This document shows positions 4,836 to 26,681 of a stretch of 28,306 nucleotides of DNA, piece after piece. The number at the start of each line of letters is the position of its first letter. Within the stretch, counting starts at the first letter, position 1. The notes beneath the pieces were generated by a model that was not told the DNA's origin, ran no database searches, and was given only the letters and a program-made list of their open reading frames with translations. The translations under genes and the position numbers were made by a program. The DNA is from a virus: positions 1-28,306 of IMG/VR virus record IMGVR_UViG_3300043429_000737; one strand, 5' to 3'.

Positions 4836-5909
4836 TTAGTTTAAGATTTGGTTTTGTTGAATGACTAAACTTATTTCTTGGTCAGGGTGAATCAATTCAA
4901 TCAGAGGTTGTAATTCTCTATTCATGAAATTCTGTAAAGGTCTCACACTTGTATTCATAAATAGTTTATAAGCTGTTTCCAATTGGTCAGCTGATGATGT
5001 AAATCCGCCAGGGTTTGGTAAACCAATTAAACTACCATCAATGATTTTGTGACCACTCATGATTTGTTTTTGAACCAATTCAAAGATGTTTGAGAAATAT
5101 CCCGATTCAACTGTTGATTGGATTTGAGTGATGTCAGGTTTTTGTTCTGCTTCACCATAAGATACAATTACACGACCAGCGTTTTCAGGACCCATATAAC
5201 GGTCTTCAATACTTTTCAATATTTGTGTTTGTTCGTTCTGTGAGTCAGGTGCGTTCATGTTGAAGTGAACCCATAATGATGGTGATAAACCGTTTTGGAT
5301 ATTGGCTAAATTGAATACGGTGATGGCGTGGTTTAATCTCACGTCATTGATTACAGATAACCAATCAGGAGCTCCGTAATAATCGTATCCACTTTGGTAT
5401 TGTTTGATATGAACAATCTGTCTGTCTGTGTAATTATTTGGGTCAAATTCACAGAACTCAACTACACCCGCTTTTCTCCAATTCGCCCAATCTCTACAAT
5501 ACATGTATTTGCTTACATCCTCACCCATTTCCTTTGGTTTACCCAATCTCATATAACGTGAAGGAATTACATATAAACCAGCAAGTCCTTGAGACCTGTC
5601 TTGTTTCCAAACCACTTCCAAAAATAAATTACCAGTTGTAATAAACTCATAATACATTTTTCTTGCGGCATCATTTAATGTTTCTTTGGTGTTAATTTTA
5701 TAATCGTTAACATAACCCATTCCAATGGCGTTATCTACTTTACTACGAACACATGCGTTTTGAATTGGTGATGCATCGTTAAGTAGATATAGTTCATTAA
5801 CGAACATATTATCCACCCCCCAACGAATAAAGAACTCGTTGCGGTTAAACACCTCTTGGAAACTAGTTAGGGTGTTTGCACCAAATTTTAATTTTTCAAT
5901 GTTAATCAT
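4836..5909 (-). CDS. Portal protein
   Basis: The gene encodes 357 residues and belongs to the HK97/PBSX-like portal group. Characteristic stretches are an N-terminal helical part with SPIQNACVRSKVDNAIGMG (about 47-65), the clip/wing strand region (TTGNLFLEVVW), the segment YYGAPDWLSVINDVRLNHAI (about 177-196), and a C-terminal stem and crown with SGHKIIDGSLIGLPNPGGFT and a SVRPLQNFMNREL helix. The length is short but within the range for this group. The portal forms the dodecameric ring through which DNA enters the head. Here it lies near the end of the late operon, far from the terminase, which is unusual. Confidence 0.9.
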   Translation of the reverse strand: MINIEKLKFGANTLTSFQEVFNRNEFFIRWGVDNMFVNELYLLNDASPIQNACVRSKVDNAIGMGYVNDYKINTKETLNDAARKMYYEFITTGNLFLEVVWKQDRSQGLAGLYVIPSRYMRLGKPKEMGEDVSKYMYCRDWANWRKAGVVEFCEFDPNNYTDRQIVHIKQYQSGYDYYGAPDWLSVINDVRLNHAITVFNLANIQNGLSPSLWVHFNMNAPDSQNEQTQILKSIEDRYMGPENAGRVIVSYGEAEQKPDITQIQSTVESGYFSNIFELVQKQIMSGHKIIDGSLIGLPNPGGFTSSADQLETAYKLFMNTSVRPLQNFMNRELQPLIELIHPDQEISLVIQQNQILN

Positions 5910-6366: not shown

Positions 6367-9126
6367 TTAAACACAAGGTGGTGAAGATTTATATGGGTGA
6401 CCAGATGGTAAATCTGCTTCCATTCCCCATTTCCATGCAAGGTATCCTTCTACCTTTTCTCTATTTGTAGTTGATAAAGCTGAATCACATACAATAATTT
6501 CAGCAATAGCACCATCGAAGTAATCGTTATATTGGTCTTTACCAATTAATGAATCTGAGAATGTACCAGAAGATGGTAATACAATTGAAGTTGGTGTATT
6601 ATCGGATGCACCATCTAACCATAAACTAATTGAACCTGTACCTCCACCAGTGTCTGTTCTAACAATTGATGTGAAATAGTATGTTCCATTTGATAAAGTT
6701 GTATTACCTCTAATTTCTTCGTTTGGTACACCATAGTACATGTAGTCAGTTGGATAACCACTACTACCCCATAATTCACCAAATGAACATGTATTAGATG
6801 GTGAATATAATGTTAACATGGCTTGATAACTTGATGATGTATCTCTTCTTGCCAAAACAAATACAGTTGCGTCATATCCTAATGTGAAGTCTGGCAAATC
6901 AAACCATTTAGATGGGAAATCAATTGTATCCTTACCATCCAAATTTGCGGTCAATAAACTTGGTTCATTACCACTTGTTGTTGTTGCATCTCTGTTGTTA
7001 CCACTCTTATCGTCCCATTGAGTTACCAATGAACCACTTAATGTTAATGTTGCAGTATCAGATGAATCCAACCATAATGCTGTTGTCAATTGTGTTGGTG
7101 TCCATGGTGTACAACCTCCACCCGAAGGTGTTGGTGTCATTGTTGGTGTAGGCGTTGGACTTGGTGCTGCTGGTGTTGCACTTGGTGTCGGAGTAACTGA
7201 TGAGGTTGCTGATGGGGTTGGTGTTGTTGATGGACAAACAGGAGGATAAGATATGTAACTATTGGCGGTTATCGCTCCATTTGATGGATAATAAATTGAA
7301 CCATCAGTTAAAAGACCATTACCCATTCCAATACCTGTTCCTGAGAATGTCCCACCATTTATTCTATAATCACCAGTAGTTTCTTGGAGCACCCATTGGT
7401 CAGCACCTGATGGGTCATCTTGCCACATAATTATCCAATAAGTTGAACCTGAATATTTTCCGAATGCTGCATATGTATTTCCACTGATTGGACCTGGTGT
7501 AAAAGTTTGTGTATCTGCGGTCCAATATCCACCACTGAATGTTCCACCCGTATATGAATATAATCTATTGTAAATTCCATTAAATTGGGTATTACCTGTA
7601 GTATTAATACGCGTATATTCCAATTGTTCAGGACAAAGTGGATAAGGTGTGATTGACGGTGTGATACTTGGAGTTGCACTTGGGGTACGAGTTATACTTG
7701 GTGTTGGTGATATACTCATAGATGGAGTTGCTGATGGTGTTGCACTCATCGTTGGAGTAGCCGTTGGGGTTACAGATGGAAGTGTAGGACAAGTTCCCCA
7801 TATTGGTTTATTACCATCAATCAAAGGACAACCACCATCACTAAATGTTGCTGGTTCAGAAAGAATTGGTAATACACACCATAGAGTTAAATCTTGGTTG
7901 AATGTTAATGCTCCTGAGAACATATAATCCATGGCTGTATCCAAGATAATTGCTGATGTGTTCCAGTTTCCAATATCTTGGTTAAAAGATGCTGCTTTAT
8001 AGAACATCCATTGGAAATTCTCAACATTAGATGTATCCCAAGTCGTTACGTTACCATTGAATGTTTGTGCTGCAGAAAACATATAGGACATATCGGTCAC
8101 ATTGGTTGTAGACCATAATCCCAAATCTGAATTGAAATTGAAACAACCTTGGAAGGTACCTACCATCAATGTGATATTTGAGGTATCCCAGTTATCTATA
8201 TTTTCTGTAAAGTTTGCACATCCTGCAAACATGTAGGATATGTCTTGAATATTTGAAACATCCCAAGTTTGTAAAGACGCATCAAAACTATTACTACTGT
8301 TGAATCTAAAGAGATAAGCCAAAGATGTACAAGCTGATAAATCAGGTGTATCATTTGCCGCATAAACCATGTTTGAACAACCATCAAAACCATGTGCTAA
8401 TGTATCCCATACAATATTACCCCATCTATCCAATGAGGTTACTTTTTGACAGTCACCAGTGTTGTTAAAATAAAGTCTTGGGAATGTACCTGTAATTGAT
8501 ATTTTATAACTTCCTGGCGTTGAATAAACGTGTAAAACATCACTTAATGTTCCACTATAATTTTCTAAATTTCCATCACCCCAATTGACTTGGAAACTGT
8601 ATCCTGAACCACTTAATGGTAAGTAAAATGAGAACACGTTACTACCAGGGAAATTGGTATCAATTCTAAATTCAAATGCTCCAACACTTGGAGTACTTGA
8701 TGGTGATGGTGTCGGTGTCAATGATGGTGTTGCACTTGGACTTGCGAATGGAGTTAAAGATGGTGTAGCTGATGGTGTTGCCGATGGGGTTACTGACCTT
8801 GTTGGTGTAACCGATGGTGATAATGAAGGTGTCACCGATGGTGTCGGTGAAGTAGATGGTGAAGGGAAATTGGTTTGTGAAGGTGAAGGTGTAATTGAAG
8901 GGGTTTGAGTAACCGTTGGAGTTCTCGTTGGAGAAACCGTTGCGGTAGGGGTTGGTGATAAAGATGGTGTTCTTGTAGGAGTTGCTGTGGGTGTTGGTGA
9001 AGGTGATGCAAACGGTGTTGCGGTTGGAGTTGGTGTTGCACCAAAAAATTGTGTTATGATATCCAACAACGCTCGTTGTTCTCCTAAATAATCTGAAAAT
9101 TTCTTATTAAAAAAATTCCTTGCCAT
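6367..9126 (-). CDS. Modular adhesin or tail fibre with PT-linkers and lectin domain
   Basis: The gene encodes 919 residues. A short anchor (1-30) is followed by a Pro/Thr/Ser linker (31-148). Next come a PKD-like Ig domain (about 150-212, with VNWGDG and HVYSTPGSYKISITG), BspA/DUF285 repeats (about 213-420, repeating the form W-D-T-S-N-V-x-x-x-x-x-M-F), a second linker (448-496) and an unassigned beta domain (498-631). A third linker (633-668) leads to a ConA-like/LamG lectin domain (670-919) ending EGYLAWKWGMEADLPSGHPY, a typical phage tail-fibre ending. BspA repeats and lectin domains bind surface glycans or proteins. I infer receptor or environmental-surface binding. The three linkers lie at about 9036-8683, 7785-7639 and 7230-7123. 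Whether it sits on tail or capsid is unknown. Confidence 0.85.
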   Translation of the reverse strand: MARNFFNKKFSDYLGEQRALLDIITQFFGATPTPTATPFASPSPTPTATPTRTPSLSPTPTATVSPTRTPTVTQTPSITPSPSQTNFPSPSTSPTPSVTPSLSPSVTPTRSVTPSATPSATPSLTPFASPSATPSLTPTPSPSSTPSVGAFEFRIDTNFPGSNVFSFYLPLSGSGYSFQVNWGDGNLENYSGTLSDVLHVYSTPGSYKISITGTFPRLYFNNTGDCQKVTSLDRWGNIVWDTLAHGFDGCSNMVYAANDTPDLSACTSLAYLFRFNSSNSFDASLQTWDVSNIQDISYMFAGCANFTENIDNWDTSNITLMVGTFQGCFNFNSDLGLWSTTNVTDMSYMFSAAQTFNGNVTTWDTSNVENFQWMFYKAASFNQDIGNWNTSAIILDTAMDYMFSGALTFNQDLTLWCVLPILSEPATFSDGGCPLIDGNKPIWGTCPTLPSVTPTATPTMSATPSATPSMSISPTPSITRTPSATPSITPSITPYPLCPEQLEYTRINTTGNTQFNGIYNRLYSYTGGTFSGGYWTADTQTFTPGPISGNTYAAFGKYSGSTYWIIMWQDDPSGADQWVLQETTGDYRINGGTFSGTGIGMGNGLLTDGSIYYPSNGAITANSYISYPPVCPSTTPTPSATSSVTPTPSATPAAPSPTPTPTMTPTPSGGGCTPWTPTQLTTALWLDSSDTATLTLSGSLVTQWDDKSGNNRDATTTSGNEPSLLTANLDGKDTIDFPSKWFDLPDFTLGYDATVFVLARRDTSSSYQAMLTLYSPSNTCSFGELWGSSGYPTDYMYYGVPNEEIRGNTTLSNGTYYFTSIVRTDTGGGTGSISLWLDGASDNTPTSIVLPSSGTFSDSLIGKDQYNDYFDGAIAEIIVCDSALSTTNREKVEGYLAWKWGMEADLPSGHPYKSSPPCV

Positions 9127-9132
9127 CTTTTG

Positions 9133-9366
9133 TTATATTATTATATTTTTATGTATTTCGTGTATCTGATTGATTGCGTCCATTAGGTTAATTTCATCTC
9201 CAACTTTTACCACATAATCTCTCACAGTTTTTGTATGTTTCGTTCTATTGAAATATGATACGTTAATTGTGATGACATCTGTTTGAAAATTGATGACCAT
9301 TGTTTCAATTACATATCCATCATATTCCTGACCATCTAATATTAATTTCTTATTGATGTTTAACAT
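9133..9366 (-). CDS. Small protein between two adhesin genes
   Basis: The gene encodes 77 residues, unrecognised. The pattern is alternating hydrophobic and polar residues (LILDGQEYDGYVIETMVINF, then TDVITINVSYFNRTKH), suggesting a small beta domain, with a helical end (LMDAINQIHEIHK). It overlaps the upstream gene by one base and precedes the large adhesin gene by 6 bases. It could be an attachment or chaperone protein for either adhesin, but this rests only on position. Confidence 0.7.
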   Translation of the reverse strand: MLNINKKLILDGQEYDGYVIETMVINFQTDVITINVSYFNRTKHTKTVRDYVVKVGDEINLMDAINQIHEIHKNIII

Positions 9367-10142
9367 TAGAATGAACGTACAGCTCTAACCTTGTATCCGT
9401 TATTGTTTTTGTTATCTGTATTTGAGGCAATGAAACAACAAATCTCTTGATACCAAGCTTGATTTGAATTGTACTGTGATGATGTCCAATATCTGTCACC
9501 ATCAGAAAATCCTAAACTAGATAAAAGACCACCTGAATAATTGGCATTAATTGAATACCATTCATCTTTGCTTGGAAGATACCAATCTGAATATCCACCT
9601 GAACTCAAATCATCACAAATTCGTGCTGCAATACCAGCTGTCGCACATTGATTGACAATCGCTGTTGTATTTGCTTGACCTGAACCAATTGATTCAGTGG
9701 TACCTGTGATATTTGTTCCTTGACATCCCCACAAAGTGTTTATACCACCAGTATCGGTGGTTGTCATAATTAAACCATGTTGAACATCAGGGTCATAACC
9801 TGTATCACCAGATTGAAGAATGTAAACAATTCTTCCTCCTTGATATGCTTGGTTTAATGTTAAAACAGTTCGTGAAGGTGTTGGAGTGACTGTTGGTGTT
9901 GGAGTTACACTTGGTACTGGTGAAGATGGTGTAACTGATGGGGTAACTGAAGGAGTTGGTGATGGACTTACATCAGGAGTTGTCTCCTTTTCAACATTCA
10001 TAATTTGAGAACCCCAAACATTACCTTTCCATTTCTTTTCAGATAAAGGTTTTAGTAATTCCTCAATAGATTGATTAATTTTTGGTTGCCCTTTCGGTAC
10101 ATTTGCTGGTCGCCACTTTTTTCCTCCCCAATTGAATCCCAT
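9366..10142 (-). CDS. PT-linked adhesin with DUF1566/Lcl domain
   Basis: The gene encodes 258 residues. Residues 1-54 are an anchor rich in Lys, Trp and Pro (GFNWGGKKWRPANVPKGQP). Residues 55-92 are a Pro/Thr/Ser/Val linker (about 9980-9867). Residues 95-258 match the DUF1566/Lcl C-terminal domain: QGGRIVYILQSGDTGYDPDV, HGLIMTT, GGYSDWYLPSKDEW, a W-T-S-S motif, and the closing NNNGYKVRAVRSF. Lcl-type domains have a C-type-lectin/FGE-like fold and occur in adhesins that bind glycans. It probably contributes host or surface binding. It is the first gene after a terminator, and I see no perfect promoter for it, so it may depend on read-through. Confidence 0.8.
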   Translation of the reverse strand: MGFNWGGKKWRPANVPKGQPKINQSIEELLKPLSEKKWKGNVWGSQIMNVEKETTPDVSPSPTPSVTPSVTPSSPVPSVTPTPTVTPTPSRTVLTLNQAYQGGRIVYILQSGDTGYDPDVQHGLIMTTTDTGGINTLWGCQGTNITGTTESIGSGQANTTAIVNQCATAGIAARICDDLSSGGYSDWYLPSKDEWYSINANYSGGLLSSLGFSDGDRYWTSSQYNSNQAWYQEICCFIASNTDNKNNNGYKVRAVRSF

Positions 10143-10819: not shown

Positions 10820-11767
10820 TTACGATTTACAGATACAGAATGAAGCTGGGTCGAATACACCGATACCGTAAGTTACGTTAGCCATAATCTTAACGATGTC
10901 TTCGAATGGGTCGTAGATAGACTTCACTGTCATGATTTCAGAGTTCATACCGAACATGTAGTATGATGCAGGACCTGCGTAGTACGCATTTACACCATCA
11001 AGACCAACAGTTGGGATAACTCTTACGTTAGTACCAGGAAGAACCAAAGACCACTCTTCACCTGAAGCAGCACCAGCAGCATCAAGAGTGAACAAGTTCA
11101 CATAAGAACTGTTTCTCATAGAAGCAACCAACGCTCTGTAGTTAGCATAAGAACAGTAAATTACTAAGTCATCTCTGTGCAATACGTTAGAAGGAATGTT
11201 TTGGTAGATAGTAGAGAATACATCCAAACCGTTAGATGAAGTAGCACCTGTGTAAGCGATTTGAGTAGCACCATTACCTGAAGTGATTAATGCACCAACA
11301 CCGTTGAAACAAGCTGAACCGTAAGTACCACCTGTAGCAACTGTATTTTGCCATAATTGTTTTTCAACTTGGTTAGCGATTCTGTTAGAGATATCTGTCA
11401 AGATTACTTCTTCAAATGGAACTGACTCTTGGAAGTTAGCGTTTGAAAGAGACTGTGACAAATATGTGTCATACAAATCGTAAGGACAAAGTTGTTGGTT
11501 TACTTTTTTATTACAAAGGTCTACAGTTACCAAGTTTTGGGTTGTAGCACCTGTTGGTGAGAATCCGCAATCTAAGTCTTGTAAGATTACATCGTTGGTT
11601 ACGAAACCAACTTTCTCGGTTGTTCCTTTTAAGTTAGGACGAACTGTAGCATATTTTGGAAGGGTTAATCCCAAAATGGATTTAATCAACATATCTGAAC
11701 CATAGCTGTTGTACGTTGGTAACGCAGCTAAGTCATAGTTGAAGTTGAATTTTTTATTCTTTTCCAT
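10820..11767 (-). CDS. Major capsid protein
   Basis: The gene encodes 315 residues and carries the pattern of Bacteroidetes-phage HK97-fold capsid proteins. The N-terminal arm (YNSYGSDMLIKSILGLTLPK) is followed by a Cys-containing segment (VNQQLCPYDLYDTYLSQS), then the spine helix region (FEEVILTDISNRIANQVEKQ). The C-terminal A-domain contains VRVIPTVGLDGVNAYYAGPA and YDPFEDIVKIMANVTYGIGV. Codon choice looks smoother and GC slightly higher than neighbours, as expected for a highly expressed gene. It follows the scaffold gene directly, as in most tailed phages. Confidence 0.9.
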   Translation of the reverse strand: MEKNKKFNFNYDLAALPTYNSYGSDMLIKSILGLTLPKYATVRPNLKGTTEKVGFVTNDVILQDLDCGFSPTGATTQNLVTVDLCNKKVNQQLCPYDLYDTYLSQSLSNANFQESVPFEEVILTDISNRIANQVEKQLWQNTVATGGTYGSACFNGVGALITSGNGATQIAYTGATSSNGLDVFSTIYQNIPSNVLHRDDLVIYCSYANYRALVASMRNSSYVNLFTLDAAGAASGEEWSLVLPGTNVRVIPTVGLDGVNAYYAGPASYYMFGMNSEIMTVKSIYDPFEDIVKIMANVTYGIGVFDPASFCICKS

Positions 11768-11793: not shown

Positions 11794-12387
11794 TTAACGT
11801 CTCATTGATTTGATAATATCCAATTTGTAATCATCCATAGTTTCTTTGTAGGTCTTTTTTTCTACTACAGAGAATTTCTCAGGTGATTTTTTGAATGAAT
11901 CAAAATCCTTTTTTATTGAAGACATTTCAGTCTCCATTTTTGTCTTTAATTTTTTCATTTCCTCAGCGAGAGTTTTTACTTCTTCAACAAGTGGAAGTAA
12001 AGCATCTACAACTTCAGCAATGACCTCGTCTTTTATAGCGGCTGGTGTTTCCTCAACAATAGCTTCTGCTTCTTCTGACATGTTCTCTTCAGTAGTTTCA
12101 TCAGTGGTTTCTTTTTCAGCATCAGATACTGAACTTTCAATAGCAACAATAACTGACTCAGAATCCACGGTAATCTTGTAACCCTCGCGAGTTGTGTGAG
12201 TACCTGCTGGTGCTGGTGTTAAAGTTGATTCACCTACTACATAAAGAACTTGACCAATCATGAAATCAGAGTCTAAGTTGTTGGTTACTTCCGTACCATC
12301 TTCCAAAGACGTAGTTGCAAAACTCTCTTTCTTGAAAGAAAGATTAAGCATCTCCTTGATTTTGTTTATTGCATCGTGTGCTTTCAT
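11794..12387 (-). CDS. Scaffolding protein
   Basis: The gene encodes 197 residues. Residues 1-85 form a small domain (NLDSDFMIGQVLYVVGES, then TREGYKITVDSESVIVAIES). Residues 88-118 are very acidic (Glu/Thr-rich). Residues 120-172 are a long amphipathic helix or coiled coil (VVDALLPLVEEVKTLAEEMK). The C-terminus is basic (KLDIIKSMRR), as is usual where scaffold contacts capsid. The composition and the place immediately before the capsid gene and after the prohead protease define a scaffold. The N-terminal domain is not a standard part of small scaffolds and may persist in the virion. Confidence 0.75.
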   Translation of the reverse strand: MKAHDAINKIKEMLNLSFKKESFATTSLEDGTEVTNNLDSDFMIGQVLYVVGESTLTPAPAGTHTTREGYKITVDSESVIVAIESSVSDAEKETTDETTEENMSEEAEAIVEETPAAIKDEVIAEVVDALLPLVEEVKTLAEEMKKLKTKMETEMSSIKKDFDSFKKSPEKFSVVEKKTYKETMDDYKLDIIKSMRR

Positions 12388-12451: not shown

Positions 12452-14995
12452 TCAATCCTCTACTGAATTTAGAATATGAATAATTTCTTCCAATAGAATA
12501 TCATCATCAGTTTTATCAAATTGCTCTTTGAAGAATTTAAGATTGAAGAATCCTTCAACACTAAATCCTTTTACTTTTCCTGTCTTAATTAATTCTTCCC
12601 AAATCTTATCACCTTCTTTGGTTGGTAAAACATAATATCCTCCAACCCATGAACCAATTGGAATTTGATTTTGATTATATCCAAATGAATAGATTTTATC
12701 TTGAGCACTTTCTACAATCCAATTCTCAACCAAAACAACATCGTTAAATGTTTTATTGGAATGTTCCAAATTGGTATTTCTTTGGTACCCATCAATCATG
12801 AATTTTCTTTGAATTTTTTCAATGGTTTCAGGTTTGAATTTCACAAAGTATTTCTCACCAGTTTCTTCTTCGATACGTGGGATTAAAACGTTGGGTAACA
12901 TCAATGGTCCGAATATCATTCTCTTGTCGTTATCCTTGGCAAATTCTATTTTACTGAAATCCTCTTTTTTGTTTGAGTTGTAAGAACAAGATTGGTACAT
13001 TTGTTTGCCCATATAATTTACAGGTTCAACAATTCCACCACAACCATTCTCATAAGAATAATCTTGAGCCATAACCTTATCTTCAAATACTGGCAAACCT
13101 TGAATAAATCCATTTGGAATTAACTTTGAGAATGAATCAGGATTGGTAACTTTTAAAATACCAACACCTCTATAATCTTCTCTTGTTTGTGGATTGTTCT
13201 CAATGGCTTCGACAATGTTAAATCCATCACCAATTAATTCCTTGGCTTTTTTCTGTTTGTTGTATGGAGATTCAACCAAGAATAAATCATCGTACTTGAC
13301 ACCAGCTTTCATCAATTGATTGATGGTCTCAGCTCTTCTCGATGAGTTTCTTGCTGACATGATTGCAATTCTATATCCACCAAACTTGGAATTAACGTAA
13401 TCAATCACATCCTGATTTGGTGTTAATCCATCGAACAAGGTATCATCGATATCAACCAATATCATTCTGTTTACACCACGGTTAAATCCATCTCTTGAAC
13501 CTTTTTGTGGATTTGCTTTTGGATTAACCATACCAGCTTGACCTGTTGCAGGATTGGTTATTTCTGCCTTTCTGATTTCATCATATTTTCTGTTGGTAAT
13601 TGTTTCTTCATAACCCACGTTTGGATTTGGATTTCCAAAGATTAATTGTAACCAATAATGACGACAATTTGCTCCACCTTTATACATCATGATATCAGGT
13701 TGAGTTCCGACAGGTCTTGGGATGATTGTTCTTTCCACATCTTCCGCAGTAATCTCTGCGTTCAATCTCATGATATCTTCATAACGGAATACGAATTGTC
13801 TACCACCCATCATTCTTCTACAAAACTCTCTACTGGTTGCAATCAGGTCTGAACCCATTCCTGATACATAAACGTATCTGATTTTTGCACCAGCAAAATC
13901 TTGTATTGAATTTTCATTCGGGTCTGAGACTATTCTGTAAAATTCTTGTTCAGTTATTTTAGAATATTTCTGTCTAACTGATTGTAATAATTCTTCAGGA
14001 TTAACCTCTTGGATATCTTCAATTACCCATCCTTGTGCCAATAGTGATTCGAGTTCAACACCACCGTCACCTATTTCATCGTGAGTTGCACAAGACATGT
14101 ACACATCATTTCCGTTTTCATCTTGATGTACATGATATCCCTCACAGTTATAATTGATTTTACCGTATGCCGCTGCATCAACAGGATTTGAGAAATATGG
14201 AATACCATCCATATATCCAATCAATGTAAATTCTTCTTTTGATTGTTCTACAGGAATACAATTTGGTGAACCATCAGGTTTTAATCCATAAGGTTCATAA
14301 CCTTTCCAACATGGGTTAGGTGTAATAGCCATTCCTTGTTTACAATTCCCACATTGGGAAAAGTTCTTGTATTCATCGATACAGATTGCAACCGCTTGGT
14401 CTTCATCGTATCCTTCTTGTCTTAAAACGGGAATACATCTTTGTAGATAATCACCCTTACCTTCACCTGGTATCTTTTCAACAAACAATATTGGTTTAAT
14501 CAACATGTTGTTTTCTGTCTCACCAGTGGGATAATTTACATAAGGTGGTAGATTGGATGTATCGATATCCATTTCTTGATTCTCAAGTTGAGATAATACG
14601 GTATCAACCCATTTAAGAGCTTCCTCACCACCCCATAATCCGTAGGCGATGGTTCCTTTATCATCCCAATTTCCTGTGTTGTAAGTTGCCGCACGTTCCA
14701 AATAGGATTTCATGCGTTTAATTGTTTCCAAAGAAATCTCAGATTGGTTACACAATTGTTGTGCTCTTACTTTTCCAACCTGAGTTCCTGCGGGATTTCC
14801 ACGTTCTTCGTTCTCTCTGATTGCCCTACACGCTTTTTGTGAAACGTAATCAGGGGCTTTATAAAATTTCTGTCTACCAAAGAAAACAAATTCGGTGTCA
14901 ATTGCTGGCATTTCAACCAACGCAACACTATCTACACCTGTTTGACCTGATAGAATATTGTTATCAATTTCTAATTCAATGATTTTATATCCCAT
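12452..14995 (-). CDS. Giant head maturation fusion: XkdF-like protease, MuF-like, HAD
   Basis: The gene encodes 847 residues. Residues 1-45 (GVDSVALVEMPAIDTEFVFF) and about 680-825 (LEHSNKTFNDVVLVENWIVE with H745, and GKVKGFSVEGFFNLKF with S812) read as the two halves of an XkdF-type prohead serine protease. Between them lie several parts. Residues 54-138 are a domain with ERGNPAGTQVGKVRAQQL and an LWGG motif. Residues 180-210 carry a C-x-x-L-x-x-E-G-Y...A-I-C motif. Two copies of a Cys motif (about 258-306 and 630-678) end in YMSC or YQSC. Residues 372-450 are MuF-like (SREFCRRMMGG, then GGANCRHYW). Residues 511-615 are a HAD phosphatase-like domain with D515-I-D517-D-T519, S547-A-R and a C-terminal IENNPQTREDY. 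The protein sits before scaffold and capsid. Protease activity is inferred. HAD activity may be vestigial, because motif IV reads E-N-N. Confidence 0.75.
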   Translation of the reverse strand: MGYKIIELEIDNNILSGQTGVDSVALVEMPAIDTEFVFFGRQKFYKAPDYVSQKACRAIRENEERGNPAGTQVGKVRAQQLCNQSEISLETIKRMKSYLERAATYNTGNWDDKGTIAYGLWGGEEALKWVDTVLSQLENQEMDIDTSNLPPYVNYPTGETENNMLIKPILFVEKIPGEGKGDYLQRCIPVLRQEGYDEDQAVAICIDEYKNFSQCGNCKQGMAITPNPCWKGYEPYGLKPDGSPNCIPVEQSKEEFTLIGYMDGIPYFSNPVDAAAYGKINYNCEGYHVHQDENGNDVYMSCATHDEIGDGGVELESLLAQGWVIEDIQEVNPEELLQSVRQKYSKITEQEFYRIVSDPNENSIQDFAGAKIRYVYVSGMGSDLIATSREFCRRMMGGRQFVFRYEDIMRLNAEITAEDVERTIIPRPVGTQPDIMMYKGGANCRHYWLQLIFGNPNPNVGYEETITNRKYDEIRKAEITNPATGQAGMVNPKANPQKGSRDGFNRGVNRMILVDIDDTLFDGLTPNQDVIDYVNSKFGGYRIAIMSARNSSRRAETINQLMKAGVKYDDLFLVESPYNKQKKAKELIGDGFNIVEAIENNPQTREDYRGVGILKVTNPDSFSKLIPNGFIQGLPVFEDKVMAQDYSYENGCGGIVEPVNYMGKQMYQSCSYNSNKKEDFSKIEFAKDNDKRMIFGPLMLPNVLIPRIEEETGEKYFVKFKPETIEKIQRKFMIDGYQRNTNLEHSNKTFNDVVLVENWIVESAQDKIYSFGYNQNQIPIGSWVGGYYVLPTKEGDKIWEELIKTGKVKGFSVEGFFNLKFFKEQFDKTDDDILLEEIIHILNSVED

Positions 14996-15013: not shown

Positions 15014-17995
15014 TTAATAACTCGCTAATTGTTCCAATCTTCTGTTTACAGCTTGTGATTTGGTAATGTCTTTTTCTAACACATAAGCTCTGATTGGTTC
15101 TTGTTTAGTTGCCGCCAATACTTCAGCCATACGTGAATCCATTATACTGTTAACATAGATTGGTCTACCACCACCTTGCATGTTTATCTGTGATAGTAAT
15201 GGTGCGTATGCCAATGTTGAACGTCTGTTGATTACAGATTCATTTCCTTCAACCTCAACACCACCAGCTTGGTAGCTAATTCCACCTTGTTCGTGAGATG
15301 GTCCACGTAAGAAACCACCACGAGCCATCGACTTAACCACACCAATTTGTTGAGCAATTATTCCAACTTGAACACCAGCCATAATTGCTGCTAAAGCGGA
15401 TAATGCAATACCCACAGGAGTGAATCCATATTCTGCAAATGTTTTCAAAATCGTTGAAGCGGCATCTGCGGTTGCTTGTGCAATTTGGATTTTCAAAGAG
15501 GTCAATCGAGCTTTCTTTTCAATTTCTTTTTTCTGTGCTTGATACATTGTTTCAAGCTCTTCTCGTTTTTGGTTGGCTTGTTCTGTATCACCTACAACCT
15601 TAGCTAATGTGTTTTGATAATCTAATTCTAATCTTTCTAATTGAAGACTATAAGATTGTGCTGCCAAAGATGCAATTTGAGAAATGGTTGATGAAAAGAT
15701 TTCAATACCTTTTTGTAGGTTTGCAATCAATTCATTTGTATCTTCTTCAGTAGTGGTTGTAGTATTTTTTTGTATCGCTAATAATTTATCATTATATTCA
15801 GTTTCAACTTGTAATAAAGCAGCTTTTACTTCTTTTAATTTCTCAGGATTTATGGTTGGGTCTAACTCTAAAACTCGTAATCTATCTCTTAGAGCATCCC
15901 TTTGTATTTTCAATTGTTTTGCTTGAAATTCAAGTTCTAATTGTATTCTTGCTCTATCAACATCTCTCTTTTGTTGTTTAGATTCTTTTTCACCCTCTTC
16001 ATAAATCTTTTGTTTGTCCTTTTCATACTTTTCATACAAAGCATTTAAGTCACCACCATTCTTTTGAATTAGAGCTTTTTCTTTTTCAAATGCATCTTGT
16101 AACTGAGCTAATTTTCCTGCAGTTGTATAGGTGTCTTGTATTCTTTTTAATTCTGCGTAATAACTTTGATTTAGTTCTAATTGAGCACCTAATTCTTGTT
16201 TTGTAGATTCGGTTAAACCTCTTTCAATCTCTTGACTATTATATTGTAATAAACCTAACTTATTGAAGTAATCTTCATATTTCTTTAATGTTTCATCAAT
16301 AATAGATTTTTCAACACCCGCAGATTCTAAAGCAAGTTTAATTTTATTTAATTCAGTTTCTTTATACTTTTTGAAATTTGAAACGAACAATTCCAATCTC
16401 TTTCTTGCGGCATCTTCTTCAGTCTCAATAACTCCTGTTTGTAGTTGTTTTGCTTTCTCAAATAAATCAACCTGACCTTGTAAATAATCTTTATTGATGG
16501 TTTCTTGAATCTGTTGAATTTTCAATTGTTGAGTAGCTAAACTATCAGCAATTGCTTTGTTTGTATCATCAATATCTTTTTGAGTTGCAACACCGGCTGT
16601 TTTTAAGTTATCAAGTCCCTTTTTTAATTCTTCTCTTTTCTTAGTTTCAACCGCAACCACATCGTCAACTTGTTGTTGATAATTTCTACCTTGAATATCT
16701 AATAATTCTTTATTAGCGGTTTTGGTTAAATTATTTAATTCTTTTTGAGCTTGTTTAATTAAATCATTTCTTTGTTTTACATAGTTCTGTGTTACCAAAT
16801 TAATATTCTCACCATTTTTCTTGGCTTCTCTTAATTCATCTTCATAAGATAATTTTAAATCAGCAAGACCTTTTTTAAGTTCAGCACTAATTAATTCATT
16901 TTTACGTTTCTGATTTGCAATAGAAATATTCAAATCTCGAAGTTGAATTTCTTTGAGAGTATTAATCTTATCAATTTCTGCGTTTACCTCTGCGTTGTTT
17001 CTTGCAACAATTGCGGCTTGTCTTTGAGAATCATATTTGTCATCAACTTTTTTCCTTTCTTCCGCATATTTTTCTTCACTTAATTTACGTTTTTCTAATA
17101 TCTGTAATTCATTCAAGTACGCAGTATTAATTGCACGTACTTTTGCTACTTGTAAATCAATTTCTTCCTTATAGGATTTTTGTCTTAATGCTGCTAATTC
17201 TTCAATACTCTTACCTTCAGCGGCTGCTGATGCTAATTGAATTTTTAAATCGTTTTGTTTTCTACGAGCAACATCATCTAATGTGTCTAATGTTTTTCTC
17301 AAAGTTCTATCCAAATCAGCTACAGCTTTTTCAGCTTCCTCTGTGTCATCACCAAAGACTGCCATGGCGGTTGCTGCGGCGGCTAATGCACCAACGATGA
17401 ATAGAACTGGATTACTCTTAATTGCGTTACCCAATAATTTAATTGCACCTGTAAGACCTACGGTTGCAGTTGTTGCGGCAACCTCAGCTCCTGTTAACGC
17501 AACTGTCGCTGCGGTCTCAGCACCCACCGCACCTGTAGCTGTGACGGTCGCGGCTGTTTGTGCGATTGTTGCATTTCTTGTGAATAATTTCTTAGCCGCA
17601 AGAACACCCTCAGCCACAGTGGTTGCACCAATGGCGATGGTTAAAACGTTTTGAGCGGCTGCTGCGGCTTTGGCCACATCCTCATTATCCTTACCGAATA
17701 ATTGAACCGCAGCACTTGCGGCTGCAAATGCACCCGTTACACCACCAGCGAATTTACCAACAGACTCGACCAATTTCTCGAAACCTAAACCCTCAGTACT
17801 TTTGTTGAAGTCTTCAAGTCTACCTCTCGCAGTTCTAATCTCAGTTGTTAATTGATTAAATTTTGCGGACCCAATGTCCACACCTTTTAACTCTTCCTCT
17901 AATTTACCAATTGAAGACTCTAATTGTTTGATATTGGTGATAGTTTCAGGTACACCATTAATCTGTAATCGTAAGCCAATAGTTCTTTCTGCCAT
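15014..17995 (-). CDS. Tape measure protein
   Basis: The gene encodes 993 residues. After a short N-terminal domain (GLRLQINGVPETITNIKQLE) it has Ala/Thr-rich hydrophobic stretches (about 80-215), a very long charged coiled coil (about 220-740, Lys/Glu/Gln-rich), a second hydrophobic region (about 860-905, GIALSALAAIMAGVQVGIIA) and a typical closing motif (SMARGGFLRGPSHEQGGI). At roughly 0.15 nm per residue the length predicts a tail of about 150 nm, hence a siphophage. The protein fills the tail tube, sets its length and is ejected with the DNA. Here it is followed by head genes rather than baseplate genes, which lie upstream. Confidence 0.9.
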   Translation of the reverse strand: MAERTIGLRLQINGVPETITNIKQLESSIGKLEEELKGVDIGSAKFNQLTTEIRTARGRLEDFNKSTEGLGFEKLVESVGKFAGGVTGAFAAASAAVQLFGKDNEDVAKAAAAAQNVLTIAIGATTVAEGVLAAKKLFTRNATIAQTAATVTATGAVGAETAATVALTGAEVAATTATVGLTGAIKLLGNAIKSNPVLFIVGALAAAATAMAVFGDDTEEAEKAVADLDRTLRKTLDTLDDVARRKQNDLKIQLASAAAEGKSIEELAALRQKSYKEEIDLQVAKVRAINTAYLNELQILEKRKLSEEKYAEERKKVDDKYDSQRQAAIVARNNAEVNAEIDKINTLKEIQLRDLNISIANQKRKNELISAELKKGLADLKLSYEDELREAKKNGENINLVTQNYVKQRNDLIKQAQKELNNLTKTANKELLDIQGRNYQQQVDDVVAVETKKREELKKGLDNLKTAGVATQKDIDDTNKAIADSLATQQLKIQQIQETINKDYLQGQVDLFEKAKQLQTGVIETEEDAARKRLELFVSNFKKYKETELNKIKLALESAGVEKSIIDETLKKYEDYFNKLGLLQYNSQEIERGLTESTKQELGAQLELNQSYYAELKRIQDTYTTAGKLAQLQDAFEKEKALIQKNGGDLNALYEKYEKDKQKIYEEGEKESKQQKRDVDRARIQLELEFQAKQLKIQRDALRDRLRVLELDPTINPEKLKEVKAALLQVETEYNDKLLAIQKNTTTTTEEDTNELIANLQKGIEIFSSTISQIASLAAQSYSLQLERLELDYQNTLAKVVGDTEQANQKREELETMYQAQKKEIEKKARLTSLKIQIAQATADAASTILKTFAEYGFTPVGIALSALAAIMAGVQVGIIAQQIGVVKSMARGGFLRGPSHEQGGISYQAGGVEVEGNESVINRRSTLAYAPLLSQINMQGGGRPIYVNSIMDSRMAEVLAATKQEPIRAYVLEKDITKSQAVNRRLEQLASY

Positions 17996-21254: not shown

Positions 21255-22943
21255 TTAACAAGGACCACCAATTACACAAATCGTTGATACAGTTCCAACA
21301 ACCGCTTCATAGATTACAGAACCATTACTGAAGAAACCTTCATACGGAATTGTCAATGAGGTATTGGTGTATAATAATGCTCCATCGGCGAATGGTGATG
21401 TCACTGAACATGGAGCGTATACTGTGGTTGTACCAGCGTTACTACATACACATACACCACCTGAACATGTGTTGAAACATTGTTGAATTACAAAGGTTCT
21501 GTACAAACAAGACGGTGTTGGTGTCGGAGTTGGTGTAGGTTGATTACATGGAGGTCCAACAATAATTTGAATTTGACCAAAGTATGTGTAGATGTTTTCA
21601 GAACATGCACAATATACCTGACCTGTTTGAGGTGGTAATGTATATGTCTGCCAGCTATTGGTGTTACAGTTGAATAACGCGAAATTCGCTGTGGTTCCTG
21701 TTTGGTTGTTATAGATTGTTACTGAATCACAACTTACACATGGTTTGATTCCACAAGCTGTTCCAACTGTGTAAACAATACCAGGGTTCAATACATTGAT
21801 TGAGTCATTACATGCACAAATTTGTACACCTGTACCGCCAGGTAATGAATACGTTTGTCTTGTTCTTGTATCACAATCAAGGAAGGTAAATTGACCTGTG
21901 CTCAATGATTGGTTTTCTACCAATATCTCAGAACATCCATTACAAATTACTGGTGTTGTGGTTGGGGTTGGAGTAGGTGATGGGGTTGGTGTTGGAGGTA
22001 ATGTTGAACCTGTGAAGTTTCCAAATAACTGAACAGTATATTGTGCGGTATTACTTGGGAAGTCATCAATGTTCATCGGTCCTGCACCCAAATACAATGT
22101 GTTGTATTCTGTATCTGTTTTTGGAATGATGTTGTAATACGACTGATATACGTAATTACAATCGGTCATTGGACCACCACCATTGGAATATACGTTTTGA
22201 TATTGTTTGGTATCAATTAAGTTACCATCAAAGTCATAGAATTTATATTCCGCATAATATGGTTGAGATAGGTTAACTTGGTCAATGTAATAATTGGTAA
22301 AACCTAATGTGTAATATTCTGTTGGTTGAATGTCTCTTGTTCTTGGTGAGTTGGTTAAGAATAATCCTGTGGTTGTTGGATTCATATTCATCGGTGTTCC
22401 CGATAGAATGAATGGACCCATATCAAATGTTTGTTGGGTAGCTCTACCGTTCACACCCATGGTTGCTTGGTAGGTTTTGAAGTTACCTGAACTTACAGCT
22501 GGTAATCCTCTCTCACCATCCAAACTATATTCGTTTGTGGTTGGGTTATAAATCAATTCACCATTACCAGTGAAACCAGTTACAGGTGATATTTCATCTT
22601 CTGCGTATTCGTATCCAAATTTAAGTTCATAAAGAATTACGTTATCCTCTAATGGTCTTGAAAATGGAAATGTTTCATGGGTATAAATTGGTGTAGTTTC
22701 ATAGTAAGATAATGGTAAATTATTTACATAATTTTTTAAGATTTTTGATACATCAACAATCCCTAATCCAAATGGGTTTGGTGTAGCTTTACCTGAGAAA
22801 ACATTATCTCCATTTACATACAAATCATAGACAAATCTAAATTTGGGATAATTCGTTAATGTAGTAATTGTAAAAAACAATCCATCCGTATACACAGGAC
22901 TGAATGTCGGAGGGGTATGTGTTATTGTTATTAATTGAGCCAT
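21255..22943 (-). CDS. Tail protein with PT-linked Cys-rich repeat domains
   Basis: The gene encodes 562 residues. Residues 1-315 are a beta-rich core (FRFVYDLYVNGDNVFSGKAT, IVDVSKILKNYVNNL, ENVILYELKFGYEYAEDE-type strand region). A Pro/Thr linker (316-331) leads to two tandem Cys-rich repeats of about 65 residues (332-398 and 401-466), each with a C-x-x-C start and an I/Y-C-A-C motif. A second linker (468-478) leads to a third, diverged Cys-rich module (479-562) with CSGGVCVCSNAG. Many Cys pairs in a cytoplasmically assembled virion protein are unusual and may bind metal or form disulfides after release. The core is probably tail tip; the added modules look like display domains. Confidence 0.7.
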   Translation of the reverse strand: MAQLITITHTPPTFSPVYTDGLFFTITTLTNYPKFRFVYDLYVNGDNVFSGKATPNPFGLGIVDVSKILKNYVNNLPLSYYETTPIYTHETFPFSRPLEDNVILYELKFGYEYAEDEISPVTGFTGNGELIYNPTTNEYSLDGERGLPAVSSGNFKTYQATMGVNGRATQQTFDMGPFILSGTPMNMNPTTTGLFLTNSPRTRDIQPTEYYTLGFTNYYIDQVNLSQPYYAEYKFYDFDGNLIDTKQYQNVYSNGGGPMTDCNYVYQSYYNIIPKTDTEYNTLYLGAGPMNIDDFPSNTAQYTVQLFGNFTGSTLPPTPTPSPTPTPTTTPVICNGCSEILVENQSLSTGQFTFLDCDTRTRQTYSLPGGTGVQICACNDSINVLNPGIVYTVGTACGIKPCVSCDSVTIYNNQTGTTANFALFNCNTNSWQTYTLPPQTGQVYCACSENIYTYFGQIQIIVGPPCNQPTPTPTPTPSCLYRTFVIQQCFNTCSGGVCVCSNAGTTTVYAPCSVTSPFADGALLYTNTSLTIPYEGFFSNGSVIYEAVVGTVSTICVIGGPC

Positions 22944-22955
22944 TATTTAATTTTT

Positions 22956-23519
22956 TTAAGGTCTGTTAGTATTACTTCTTGGGAATATTCTTCCTTCATC
23001 ATATAATTTTAAAATATATTCTCTTGCTGCATCACCGGCTTTTTCGGTTATTTGTTCTAGAGTTTCAGTTACTGCTTTATCAATGAATTGAATACCATAA
23101 TATCCATATTGTGCGATACTTCTTCTCATTAAGAATACCAAAGATTTTCTTGAAACAAATCGTCCTTTTTCATCTCTGATACCAGCGATACCGGGTTTCT
23201 GTCTAACCCATTTGTCGATAGCCAATAATGGTGGGTATCTACCAGGTCTTCTACCATAGTTAACAAATTCCCAATAATCAGCATCACCAAAATCAACAAC
23301 CAAATTGGGTTTTCCATCCTCGAAATCTGTTTCCCAATATACCCTTGTTTGTTTGTATAAATTACCTGATGCATATCTTGGAGATACTGGCGTTCTACCA
23401 ATACCACTTACAGGTTTGTTTTGACCTGAGAATGTTTTTGCAGGATAAGGTTTTCTAAGTTGACCTTTGATATTATTCTGCAACAATTGGGCTATTTCCT
23501 GTAAGATTTCCTCTTCCAT
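22956..23519 (-). CDS. Neck or tail-completion protein, HK97 gp10-like
   Basis: The gene encodes 187 residues. The pattern is an N-terminal helix (EEILQEIAQLLQNNIKGQLR), then strands (NLYKQTRVYWETDF, NLVVDFGDADYWEFVNYGRR) and the conserved stretch PLLAIDKWVRQKPG, followed by a C-terminal helix (FIDKAVTETLEQITEKAGDA). This is the layout of gp10-family neck/tail-completion proteins, where the Y-W-E-F-V-N-x-G-R-R segment is characteristic. Its start overlaps the stop of the upstream tail terminator-like gene by one base, and neck and terminator genes are usual neighbours. Confidence 0.8.
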   Translation of the reverse strand: MEEEILQEIAQLLQNNIKGQLRKPYPAKTFSGQNKPVSGIGRTPVSPRYASGNLYKQTRVYWETDFEDGKPNLVVDFGDADYWEFVNYGRRPGRYPPLLAIDKWVRQKPGIAGIRDEKGRFVSRKSLVFLMRRSIAQYGYYGIQFIDKAVTETLEQITEKAGDAAREYILKLYDEGRIFPRSNTNRP

Positions 23520-24361
23520 TAATATACTACATTATAACATGCACAGCCAGGTACGGCTGAGGTTATTGTAACTGATACTGCGTTCTCACCTGGTATTAAT
23601 GAGTTCACATTGACGTTATGTTGTGTACTGTTTGCAGGGAATGTTGTGGTACCTGAACCAGTTCCACCTAAATTACCAACAACATTAAATCCAATACTGA
23701 TACTACACTGTGATTGAGCACTGATGGTATGACCTGAGTTTTGCCAAATCAAGAAATTGATATTGTTGGAACCTTGAGGAAGTCCTGTCAGATATTGTGT
23801 AATCAGTGTACAACTTGGTGTTACTGTGGGAGTTGGTGTTGGTGAAGCTGTAATTGTTGGAGTTGGGGTTACACTTGCTGATGGTGTTGGACTTACAGCT
23901 ACACTTGGTGATGGATATGGGTCACATGCGTTGATATCTTCAAATACCACTAATGATACGTCCAATACAACCCCACCAACATGGTCATTAAATCTTTCAA
24001 AGAATGGTGTTGAAGATGCTGGTAATATACAATCCACTTTATCAATCAATGTACCTCGTTTAATTTGAGATAATAGACTTCTGGCTTCTAATTCCATATC
24101 TGTTACCACATCAACCTCATTGGATAAATCTGTGTGAACAATATCCGCAAATATGATGGACATCTGATAGGTTGTTGTATTTTCATCATAACTCATCGCC
24201 AATGGTGTTGCGAACATCAATGGATATTGGATGGTATTTCCACTCATTGAATCAGCGAAATAAACAATATCACCCTGAGCAAATGATTTCATTCTTGGTG
24301 ATGCTTGTTGGACCGATTCCAATAAGTCGATGATTTTATGATATGTTACGTATTTTATCAT
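23519..24361 (-). CDS. Tail terminator-like protein with PT-linked Ig-like domain
   Basis: The gene encodes 280 residues. Residues 1-145 (YHKIIDLLESVQQASPRMKS, MFATPLAMSYDENTTTYQMS, DVSLVVFEDINACDP) have the alpha/beta layout of tail terminator (gpU-like or tail-completion) proteins. Residues 150-183 are a Pro/Thr/Ser/Val linker (about 23914-23813). Residues 184-280 form a beta-sandwich-like module (CTLITQYLTGLPQGSNN, TISAQSQCSISIGFNVVGNL) resembling an Ig-like domain. The core family is normally about 140-150 residues, so half of this protein is an addition. It would place a display domain at the head-tail joint. Confidence 0.7.
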   Translation of the reverse strand: MIKYVTYHKIIDLLESVQQASPRMKSFAQGDIVYFADSMSGNTIQYPLMFATPLAMSYDENTTTYQMSIIFADIVHTDLSNEVDVVTDMELEARSLLSQIKRGTLIDKVDCILPASSTPFFERFNDHVGGVVLDVSLVVFEDINACDPYPSPSVAVSPTPSASVTPTPTITASPTPTPTVTPSCTLITQYLTGLPQGSNNINFLIWQNSGHTISAQSQCSISIGFNVVGNLGGTGSGTTTFPANSTQHNVNVNSLIPGENAVSVTITSAVPGCACYNVVY

Positions 24362-24385: not shown

Positions 24386-25212
24386 TTATCTTCTATTCAT
24401 CTGGTATTTCTGTTCCAATTTGCGTTGTTGCTCTCGTTCCCTTTCATATCTATCTTTGATAATTGATGCAACATTCAAACAGATGTATAGATTCATGTTT
24501 TCGACTTGCTCAAATTTTGTAATGTCTTCTTTCGCGAGTTGGTACGTGAGATTAAAATAGAATCGAGCGGTAGCTTCTTTTTGAGAAATTTTGGCATCAT
24601 CTCCCACCCCTTCGTTATCTTCTTGTTCATCTTGTTCTCCCACTCCAAAGAAGCCTGCATATTTTTTATGTATATTTGAGCGATTAAAAAAAAAAACTGC
24701 GCAGCTCCCAACCACATTCTCAGTGGTACGTGTCTCATGATTTCGGCTCTGTCTTCAATCTCTTCTGATTTATATGGAACTATCTTATAATCTTTGACAT
24801 TCTTTTTATCTTTTGATACAATTGGTCTGTATAAAATAGCCATTATTTTATGAAGATTTGTATAGATATTATCTGAGGAATAAACCTCGAAATCTACCCA
24901 AGCTCCCCAAGCTAATTTTGACCAATCATTTTCCAATCCGTATTCTACACCATTGTATTCAAATGTGAGAACAATTTCTTGTTGTTTTGGTAACTTAACT
25001 CTATCGTTTAAAAAGAACTCAATTAATTCGATTTCTTCTGTACTACAATTCTTTAATTGGTTACTTGGAATACCTGTGAATAATGACAATAATTGAATGG
25101 GATTGTCATCATATAATTCAGGATTTATCATCATCTGTTGATACATCCCAAGTGTTATTTCTTTTGGTATTTCAACTACCTCATTATCTATTAATAATTC
25201 TAAATTTTCCAT
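24386..25212 (-). CDS. Conserved phage protein needing a -1 frameshift
   Basis: Two frames are joined here. Frame 0 runs 25212-24493 (239 residues) with ITLGMYQQMM, IQLLSLFTGIPSNQL and NLHKIMAILYRPIV. A -1 frame entered at the T11 run (plus 24686-24696) ends at 24386, giving a fusion of about 275 residues. The -1 tail (ATARFYFNLTYQLAKEDITK, then YICLNVASIIKDRYE) reads as a genuine conserved C-terminus, whereas the frame-0 tail after the run is Lys-rich and looks like shadow coding. Frame 0 reads TTT TTT TTA, the canonical U UUU UUA site, with a GGGAG about 10 bases upstream. The alternative is a homopolymer sequencing error. The position after TerL and before tail genes would fit a tail-assembly chaperone, but the family is not established. 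Confidence 0.7.
24685..24696 (-). promoter_or_regulatory. U UUU UUA slippery site in an 11-T run
   Basis: On the minus strand the coding sequence reads CAG followed by eleven T and then AATCGC. Frame 0 pairs UUU UUA in the P and A sites and can slip back by one to UUU UUU, continuing with AAU CGC. A GGGAG sequence lies about 10 bases before the run, the distance at which an internal Shine-Dalgarno stimulates -1 shifting in dnaX. No clear downstream stem was seen. Confidence 0.6.
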
Positions 25213-26366
25213 TACAATATTTTAAGTGTTCCACTCTTTTTATTTAATTCAGATTCGAGCACATATCTTATAGCATCGATTGCGTGGTTATGGTCATCCT
25301 CGGGAATATCCAATAGTTGACCATCCTTATCTTCTTTGAACTTATATGATTGAAATTCTCTAATCGTATTTGTTGAAGATTGTTCAATAAAAATATGATG
25401 ACGTTTAATCAAATCAATTCCATGTAAAATAGATTTTTTGTTAACCGGTTTTACATTGAATCTAGCTCGTTTTAATTCCTCAATATTTTGTGGTAATGCA
25501 GAATCACACCATATGGTATCGGTCTTTTCAAAACCCAACTGTTCCATTTGATAAATGATATCTGGCATTGTTTTATTTTTGGTGTAGAGTAATTCCCTGA
25601 AATACAAATTATCTTCGTCCTTATACACCTCAATTAGGGTTGTTGGAGAATTGTAACCAAAGTCCATTCCTCGACCTAATAGTTTCATATTTGGGATTTG
25701 CTCTATAGTATTAAATTTGGTGAACACCAATTGGGTTGCAATACCTTTCTCACCCAAGTTATAGATTCGATATAAGTTCTCATCTTTCTCCCTGAGTGAT
25801 TCCAATTCCTTGATGATGGTATCTGATACAAATGGATTATCTCTCCATGTTGTTTTGAATAGATAACAGTCATCTCGTTTCTCCAAGTCATAGACCCAAG
25901 AATTTAAATCAGATGGGTTTAAGTCACAGATAACCTTGTCAGTTGTTCTAAAGATTAATTGGTTCCAATCCTCTATCTTTAATTCATTGGCTTCGTTACA
26001 ATAGAGGTAATCACGTTTCATACCTCGAATCTTTTGTGGTTCATCCACCGATACCCAATTGATGATATTGGTACCCAATTCGTAGAATCCCTCCTGTTTG
26101 TGGAATTTGTTTGGGTCATAAACCTCAAACATCTCAAGAACTTGAATAAGGTCTTTTAAGACACTATTTTTTAATGAAGGTAAAGTTTTACGTACAATCG
26201 TTAAAGTCTTCTTATTCTCATTTAAAAGACGGTAAACCCAATAGATAAGAATGTTGAATGTCTTACCTGAACGTGAACCACCTTGAGCAACAACTATTCG
26301 TTTGTCGAGCTCATCTGATTTTAGTAATTCTTCTAAAACAATTGTACTTTGAATTTTTAACCCCAT
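25212..26366 (-). CDS. terL: Terminase large subunit
   Basis: The gene encodes 384 residues and is of the Terminase_3/PBSX type. The ATPase domain shows Walker A GGSRSGKT at 29-36 and Walker B YLYCNEANE at 120-128, with E125 as the catalytic Glu. A coupling motif is probable around the CDLNPSD stretch (147-153). The RNase-H-like nuclease domain shows D235 (GMDFGY), D288 (IWCDSA) and D364 (NHAIDAIRY), the expected acidic residues. It packages DNA into the prohead through the portal. It overlaps the previous small gene by 10 bp and the next gene by one base. Length and motifs look intact. Confidence 0.95.
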   Translation of the reverse strand: MGLKIQSTIVLEELLKSDELDKRIVVAQGGSRSGKTFNILIYWVYRLLNENKKTLTIVRKTLPSLKNSVLKDLIQVLEMFEVYDPNKFHKQEGFYELGTNIINWVSVDEPQKIRGMKRDYLYCNEANELKIEDWNQLIFRTTDKVICDLNPSDLNSWVYDLEKRDDCYLFKTTWRDNPFVSDTIIKELESLREKDENLYRIYNLGEKGIATQLVFTKFNTIEQIPNMKLLGRGMDFGYNSPTTLIEVYKDEDNLYFRELLYTKNKTMPDIIYQMEQLGFEKTDTIWCDSALPQNIEELKRARFNVKPVNKKSILHGIDLIKRHHIFIEQSSTNTIREFQSYKFKEDKDGQLLDIPEDDHNHAIDAIRYVLESELNKKSGTLKIL

Positions 26367-26554
26367 ACATTCTCTTCAATTTTTGGCTCTTGGGATTCTA
26401 ATAACTTTTCAACCAACACGTTCATTGAGATGTTATGTTTTGATGCAACAGATTTTAATTTCTGATGCAATTCAGGTCTAATCCAAATTGGTTGAAATTT
26501 GTATTCGTATGTGTAGACTTTACCTGTTTTCGATATTACTGTTGTTTTCGACAT
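26357..26554 (-). CDS. Ribbon-helix-helix type small protein
   Basis: The gene encodes 65 residues. Residues 17-55 fit a ribbon-helix-helix: a strand (YKFQPIWIRPEL), a helix (HQKLKSVASKHNI) and a second helix (MNVLVEKLLESQ). Such Arc-like or HicB-tail-like proteins bind DNA as dimers. Its place between the terminase subunits could mean a packaging-site binder or a local regulator. The gene overlaps the upstream small gene by 35 bp and the TerL start by 10 bp. Confidence 0.75.
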   Translation of the reverse strand: MSKTTVISKTGKVYTYEYKFQPIWIRPELHQKLKSVASKHNISMNVLVEKLLESQEPKIEENVWG

Positions 26555-26681
26555 TGGCTTGGTTCATTTGTTCGATTATTTTTCTTGTTAAAGCCAATTT
26601 CTTTTGTTTCAAAACTTGATTTCTGTTGGCTACTCTTTTACGGTGAGCTTTGGCTCCACCTCTTAATCTACTTTTCGGCAT
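26520..26681 (-). CDS. Very small basic protein
   Basis: The gene encodes 53 residues, starting ATG at 26681 (MPKSRLRGGAKAHRKRVANR) and ending at the TAA at 26520. It is strongly basic in the first 20 residues, then helical (VLKQKKLALTRKIIEQMNQA). Small proteins with this PKSR...HRKRV...RN start are, from memory, widespread in Bacteroidetes phages next to terminase genes. The function is unknown; nucleic-acid binding is plausible from its charge. It overlaps the TerS tail by 14 bp and the next gene by 35 bp, so the four terminase-region genes are tightly packed. Confidence 0.7.
   Translation of the reverse strand: MPKSRLRGGAKAHRKRVANRNQVLKQKKLALTRKIIEQMNQANVENNSNIENR

Follow-up and report, generated by a model that had tools for sequence, protein, structure and literature searches.

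Prohead proteases of the XkdF type (Peptidase_S78_2, PF14550) are exemplified by the product of gene 1 of Nonlabens phage P12024L, in which the whole fold is found in profile order with its histidine and serine conserved, and which is encoded upstream of the major capsid protein (MCP), as is the case here. The P12024L protease is 349 aa long and uninterrupted, its first strand (EGVYALSVVKSPAMESKF) running straight into the core, whereas 637 aa stand between this strand and the core in the protease of the window, i.e. the whole 28,306-base IMG/VR virus record that was analysed. Gene 6 of the same phage and the portals of family phrog_33693 have the same tail as that found in the window, with R..FC and GG..C.H conserved. 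These portals carry the tail themselves; in the window, it is the protease that has the tail, and the portal is 357 aa long.

Other described systems resemble the locus in more general ways. In phage SPP1, the portal targets gp7 to the procapsid interior (PMC6316719). What the locus shares with SPP1 gp7 and the MuF proteins is the idea of a protein that is linked to the portal inside the head and in some cases has fused domains (PMC6316719), but the window chain is devoid of a Pfam MuF match and its carrier is a protease. In phage T4, the prohead protease removes the short peptides that serve as capsid targeting sequences (PMC9026906). The likeness is a short peptide through which proteins could be brought into the prohead; unlike those of T4, the candidate peptide of the window is similar to the arm of the coat protein itself and is located inside the chain. 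Finally, polyvalent proteins (Iyer et al. 2017, PMC5512222) are likewise long phage proteins whose domains are shuffled and whose genes lie among those of the virion, but the window modules are built inside a prohead protease fold, and only a HAD domain among them has a named function.

A prohead protease opened after its first strand

The inserted XkdF-type protease is encoded by a single ORF of 847 aa (12452-14995, minus strand) without any internal stop. A single open frame is also observed in 16 relatives, complete or cut by contig ends, which originate from independent metagenome contigs, and an assembly artefact is therefore excluded. The ORF is bordered on one side by a tape-measure-like gene (15014-17995) and on the other by two head genes. 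The first encodes a probable scaffold protein (11794-12387, minus strand) comprising a coiled coil, assigned from position and composition only. The second (10820-11767, minus strand) encodes the putative MCP, a function deduced from position and family: its product gives a weak SU10_MCP match and is homologous to the ORF located 3' of the protease in relatives. The terminase genes are found at 25212-27105, while the portal gene occupies positions 4836-5909 (minus strand). This late gene order (4836-27105) is unusual: terminase, tail genes with the tape measure, protease, scaffold and MCP, with the portal far downstream.

The Pfam XkdF profile (PF14550) matches residues 687-816 of the ORF product (E-value 6e-12; 46 bits for a cut-off of 24). 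A profile built from 15 uninserted XkdF proteases matches it in two pieces. Profile positions 6-43 are found at residues 3-43 (15.6 bits, i-E-value 1.7e-5), and positions 44-192 at residues 681-838 (134.9 bits, i-E-value 4.6e-42). The two pieces are thus consecutive in the profile, yet 637 aa apart in the window protease, and the other inserted homologues are broken at the same profile point. The N-terminal strand (residues 1-43, GVDSVALVEMPAI; 14867-14995, minus strand) is retained in every intact inserted homologue and directly adjoins the core in the uninserted ones. The core itself (residues 681-838; 12482-12955, minus strand) is delineated by Pfam, the split profile and the structure model. 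It harbors the candidate catalytic residues H745 (12761-12763, minus strand) and S812 (12560-12562, minus strand), whose equivalents are invariant in the protease alignment A1. Both are kept in all complete inserted copies examined, the serine being embedded in AVSVEG in L080, while L016 is cut off. A first-pass annotation of this DNA had described an XkdF-like sequence starting at the N-terminus, broken at about residue 45 and resuming at about 680, and the two-piece match bears this out; H745, S812, D515, LWGG (120), FCRRMMGG (391) and NCRHYW (443) are likewise all at the positions it gave. The profile comparison hence confirms the assignment of the 847-aa ORF as a predicted XkdF-type (S78_2) prohead protease, opened after its first strand.

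The AlphaFold prediction of the whole chain, based on 68 alignment rows, exhibits confident LWGG and protease-core domains, with pLDDT values of 70-93 for most of the core. The values drop to ~24-34 for residues 1-40, residues 1-41 are not placed on the core, and the overall pTM is 0.30. With this model, Foldseek returned other XkdF proteins among viral models; against the PDB, it yielded no match at an E-value of 0.001 or lower, the weak ones including T4 polynucleotide kinase and other HAD proteins. A sequence search of the protease chain against solved structures returned nothing meaningful, and the chain gives no Pfam or NCBIfam match other than S78_2 and a weak one to HAD.

A portal tail carried by the protease

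The most constant module of the insert, present in 62 of the 71 proteins examined, is a segment spanning residues 329-465 (13601-14011, minus strand), which lies closer to the core than most other modules. It matches the C-terminal tail of the phrog_33693 portals (positions 421-509, E-value 7e-8), the reciprocal search returns portals, and the conserved R..FC and GG..C.H motifs are shared with the Nonlabens phage portal (alignment A3). This 560-aa portal family accordingly matches the window twice: its front (85-341) in the portal gene, which lacks the C-terminal tail of its relatives, and its tail in the protease. The segment had been annotated as MuF-like. It is indeed a head-protein segment with its motifs in place, but no Pfam MuF (PF04233) match is found in the window protease at an E-value of 0.1, and what had been called a minor head protein is, by these reciprocal profile matches, the portal's own tail, moved to the protease.

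The distribution of the tail follows two patterns, although phage counts do not represent independent events: in the window phage (portal of 357 aa) and 12 others (tail-less portals of 360-388 aa), it is found in the protease, and in eight phages with uninserted proteases, on the portal, which is then 560-721 aa long. The LWGG module described below precedes the portal tail in four of these eight long-portal phages. No record among those behind the loci carries the tail on both proteins, most loci being contig fragments, so that such absences apply to the sequenced part only. The relocation of this head part from portal to protease suggests that its location inside the prohead matters, and not the protein that carries it. 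Predicted alone, the portal-tail segment reaches a pLDDT of 67, and Foldseek found no relative of this model in the PDB. A tblastn search using the common subtype of this segment as query retrieved no annotated phage.

A peptide resembling the arm of the major capsid protein

A second link to the head is a peptide of ~25 aa, absent from the features listed by the first-pass annotation. Residues 145-175 of the protease (DTSNLPPYVNYPTGETENNMLIKPIL...; 14471-14563, minus strand) resemble the first residues of the MCP (FNYDLAALPTYNSYGSDMLIKSIL), namely its N-terminal arm (11669-11749, minus strand). A profile of 35 distinct MCP arms retrieves 24 proteases at E-values below 0.01, always at one peptide of the insert, with a best score of 21.5 bits vs a maximum of 6.7 bits in 3550 shuffled sequences. 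The peptide of the window itself is weaker (E-value 0.045) and aligns in the same register. In the reverse search, the only proteins found outside the proteases are MCPs. Almost every intact member of the main clade has one copy, with varying neighbouring modules; the peptide is missing in the divergent inserted proteases L079 and L080 and partially matched in L061. The peptides do not fit the MCP of their own phage better than those of other phages (p = 0.64), and hence no fine co-evolution of the two is visible.

Such a mimic of the capsid arm could serve more generally as a targeting tag. Another possible reading, on which we remain doubtful, is that the peptide is a cleavage site and not a docking signal, the protease recognizing one motif in both the MCP arm and its own linker and cutting there. 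LPxYxxY...MLxKP is common to both chains, the peptide sits between modules, and autocleavage of the T4 prohead protease gp21 has been discussed (PMC9026906). However, the ~25 conserved positions exceed a usual short cleavage site, and the motif occurs once per chain instead of at every module boundary.

Exchangeable modules within the insert

A census of the modules was performed by scanning iterated profiles of insert pieces over the 71 proteins. The same point of the protease is interrupted in 41 intact sequences, by inserts of 238-795 aa with 27 module orders. About 10 modules are exchanged within the insert, including DUF5824, CW, HAD, Cys, helical and HVA/TUDOR-like modules. From the N-terminal strand onwards, the census places in the window an LWGG module (residues 48-141; 14573-14854, minus strand), an RC module with the signature GE..D(Y/F)..RC....EG....A..IC (residues 173-211; 14363-14479, minus strand), and a first Cys motif (residues 254-307; 14075-14236, minus strand), which is DUF3721-like according to a weak match in relative L065. 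A second Cys motif precedes the core (residues 624-676; 12968-13126, minus strand). The two Cys motifs had been taken as copies of each other, and they do form one family: a profile from either copy retrieves both.

Between the RC module and the first Cys motif, a CW module (residues 219-248; 14252-14341, minus strand) occupies a slot whose content differs between close relatives. The DNA of the window and that of L005 and L006 are 96-97% identical on either side of this slot, which contains the 30-aa CW module in the former and a ~145-aa DUF5824 module in the latter, a clean swap. A second lineage displays an equal CW/DUF5824 exchange (L031 vs L032). As read from these DNA comparisons, the exchange is recent. 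The dN/dS ratios range from 0.03 to 0.25 in all segments where they are computable, indicating purifying selection, which is stronger on the LWGG and portal-tail modules than on the protease core; silent sites are saturated in the short capsid-arm mimic, and no ratio was obtained. In the window protease and ten relatives, Pfam recognized S78_2, DUF5824, DUF3721 and, weakly, HAD, and nothing else. In the collection of papers searched, none dealt with DUF5824, DUF3721 or inserted XkdF proteases.

The HAD domain of the window (13142-13474, minus strand) is of the polynucleotide 3'-phosphatase-like kind, with matches to the phosphatase region of phage polynucleotide kinases (phrog_415, E-value 5e-12; 32% identity with a Klebsiella phage PNK). 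Its motif I, D515-I-D-D-T519, is intact, and DIDDT is kept in all eight copies of this HAD type, which is confined to the close relatives of the window and L067. A second, differently placed HAD type has lost the motif in nine phages, and a HAD domain is missing altogether from several inserted proteases. The presence of a HAD-type domain with an intact DxDxT, reported in the first pass, is thus correct, but the domain is not a constant part of these proteases, being degenerate or absent in many relatives. It may have an enzymatic role, which would not be constant across the system. The proposal of a single chain combining a protease, a minor head protein and a phosphatase-like activity holds for the split protease, the head segment and the HAD domain, with the corrections that the head segment is a portal tail and that the HAD is unstable. 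The HADs of L013, L025, L049, L059, L066 and L068-L071 lack the catalytic DxD and retain the rest of the fold and an HYD motif; these are perhaps binding modules.

Modules on other carriers

The insert modules are not restricted to inserted proteases. They are found at the C-terminus of uninserted proteases (L081, L103), between the portal and its tail (L110, L111, L113, L114), and in a halovirus portal that has a region annotated as Mu gpF-like. In Roseobacter phages, they form the front part of a fusion between an S78 protease and the MCP. The LWGG module is carried by portals and S78 proteases, and also exists as an ORF of its own. The occurrence of the same modules on proteases, portals, fusions and separate ORFs suggests that their function is independent of the carrier. 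The swapped modules provide a list of small domains that are linked to head proteins in several unrelated phages.

Two loci illustrate these arrangements. In L101 (5074-6705), three small ORFs located just downstream of an uninserted XkdF protease correspond to stand-alone M, LWGG and RC-RC-CW modules. In Roseobacter phage CRP-831 (L019, 3995-6919), a 974-aa protein annotated as MCP assembles LWGG and DUF5824 modules, an S78-type protease-like region and the MCP.

Origin and possible role of the insert

In the protease tree, the inserted group is supported 86/86 and the minimum number of origins forced by the starred branches is one, the long branches making deep placements unsure. This gives moderate support to one origin of the insertion, followed by module exchange. 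Independent insertions in several lineages were considered and rejected, since the tree fits one origin, though its deep branches are long. The sequence comparisons indicate that, in an ancestor of this clade of tailed phages, a foreign stretch entered the XkdF protease right after the first strand. This stretch contains the portal C-terminal tail, often with the LWGG module, and the phages with the tail in the protease have lost it from the portal. The stretch then turned into an array of slots, in which modules are swapped by recombination.

We consider it somewhat probable that the inserted prohead protease is a carrier for head-interior modules. The capsid-arm mimic and the portal tail would draw the chain into the growing prohead, where the protease would fold across the insert from the N-terminal strand and the core. 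It would trim head proteins and probably also cleave the linkers within its own chain, so that the modules would be released into the head interior, close to the portal and the DNA. There, they may act in assembly, protect DNA or be ejected into the host. The proposed loading and trimming are suggested by the sequence findings, by SPP1 gp7 and by the T4 targeting peptides; self-cleavage, encapsidation and ejection of the modules are all predicted steps. More tentatively, the protease might be a dedicated loading vehicle, in which the peptide copied from the coat arm docks inside the shell and exchangeable, self-released modules are delivered to the next host. The system constitutes a testable candidate for protein loading into the heads of phages outside the T4 group.

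It is rather unlikely that the modules are assembly or regulation parts and not cargo. The portal tail and the mimic would then hold the protease in place between portal, scaffold and coat, timing would be tuned by the other modules, and all would be destroyed at maturation. The constancy of the portal tail and its location nearer to the core than that of most other modules agree with such a role, as do the association of the modules with head genes wherever they are found and the persistence of HAD copies that lack catalytic residues. That most modules are optional and quickly exchanged between nearly identical phages is nevertheless unusual for assembly parts, and modules are also encoded by separate ORFs (L101) or borne by other carriers.

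A typical polyvalent protein, whose modules would be injected effectors against host defence, is less likely still. The multidomain organization, the late-gene context and the fast turnover of modules are those of the class described in PMC5512222, but the HAD is the only named enzyme fold besides the protease and is often degenerate or missing, and Pfam found no effector domain of the kinds reported in PMC5512222 in the window protease and ten relatives. A chimeric assembly, a frameshift artefact or decayed sequence is refuted by a frame that is open in many independent contigs and by dN/dS values well below 1 where computable.

Other genes of the window

Beyond the head genes, the window encodes a 919-aa virion protein (6367-9126, minus strand) with a strong match to DUF285 (BspA/Mycoplasma-type repeat) and a PKD-like region, which is probably a host-binding tail protein. 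Low-complexity linkers of the PTPTPTPS type are observed in several virion proteins (9366-10142, 21255-22943 and 23519-24361, minus strand). At the contig end, a gene resembling replication initiation genes (DnaD/O-like) is located at positions 784-1521 (minus strand).
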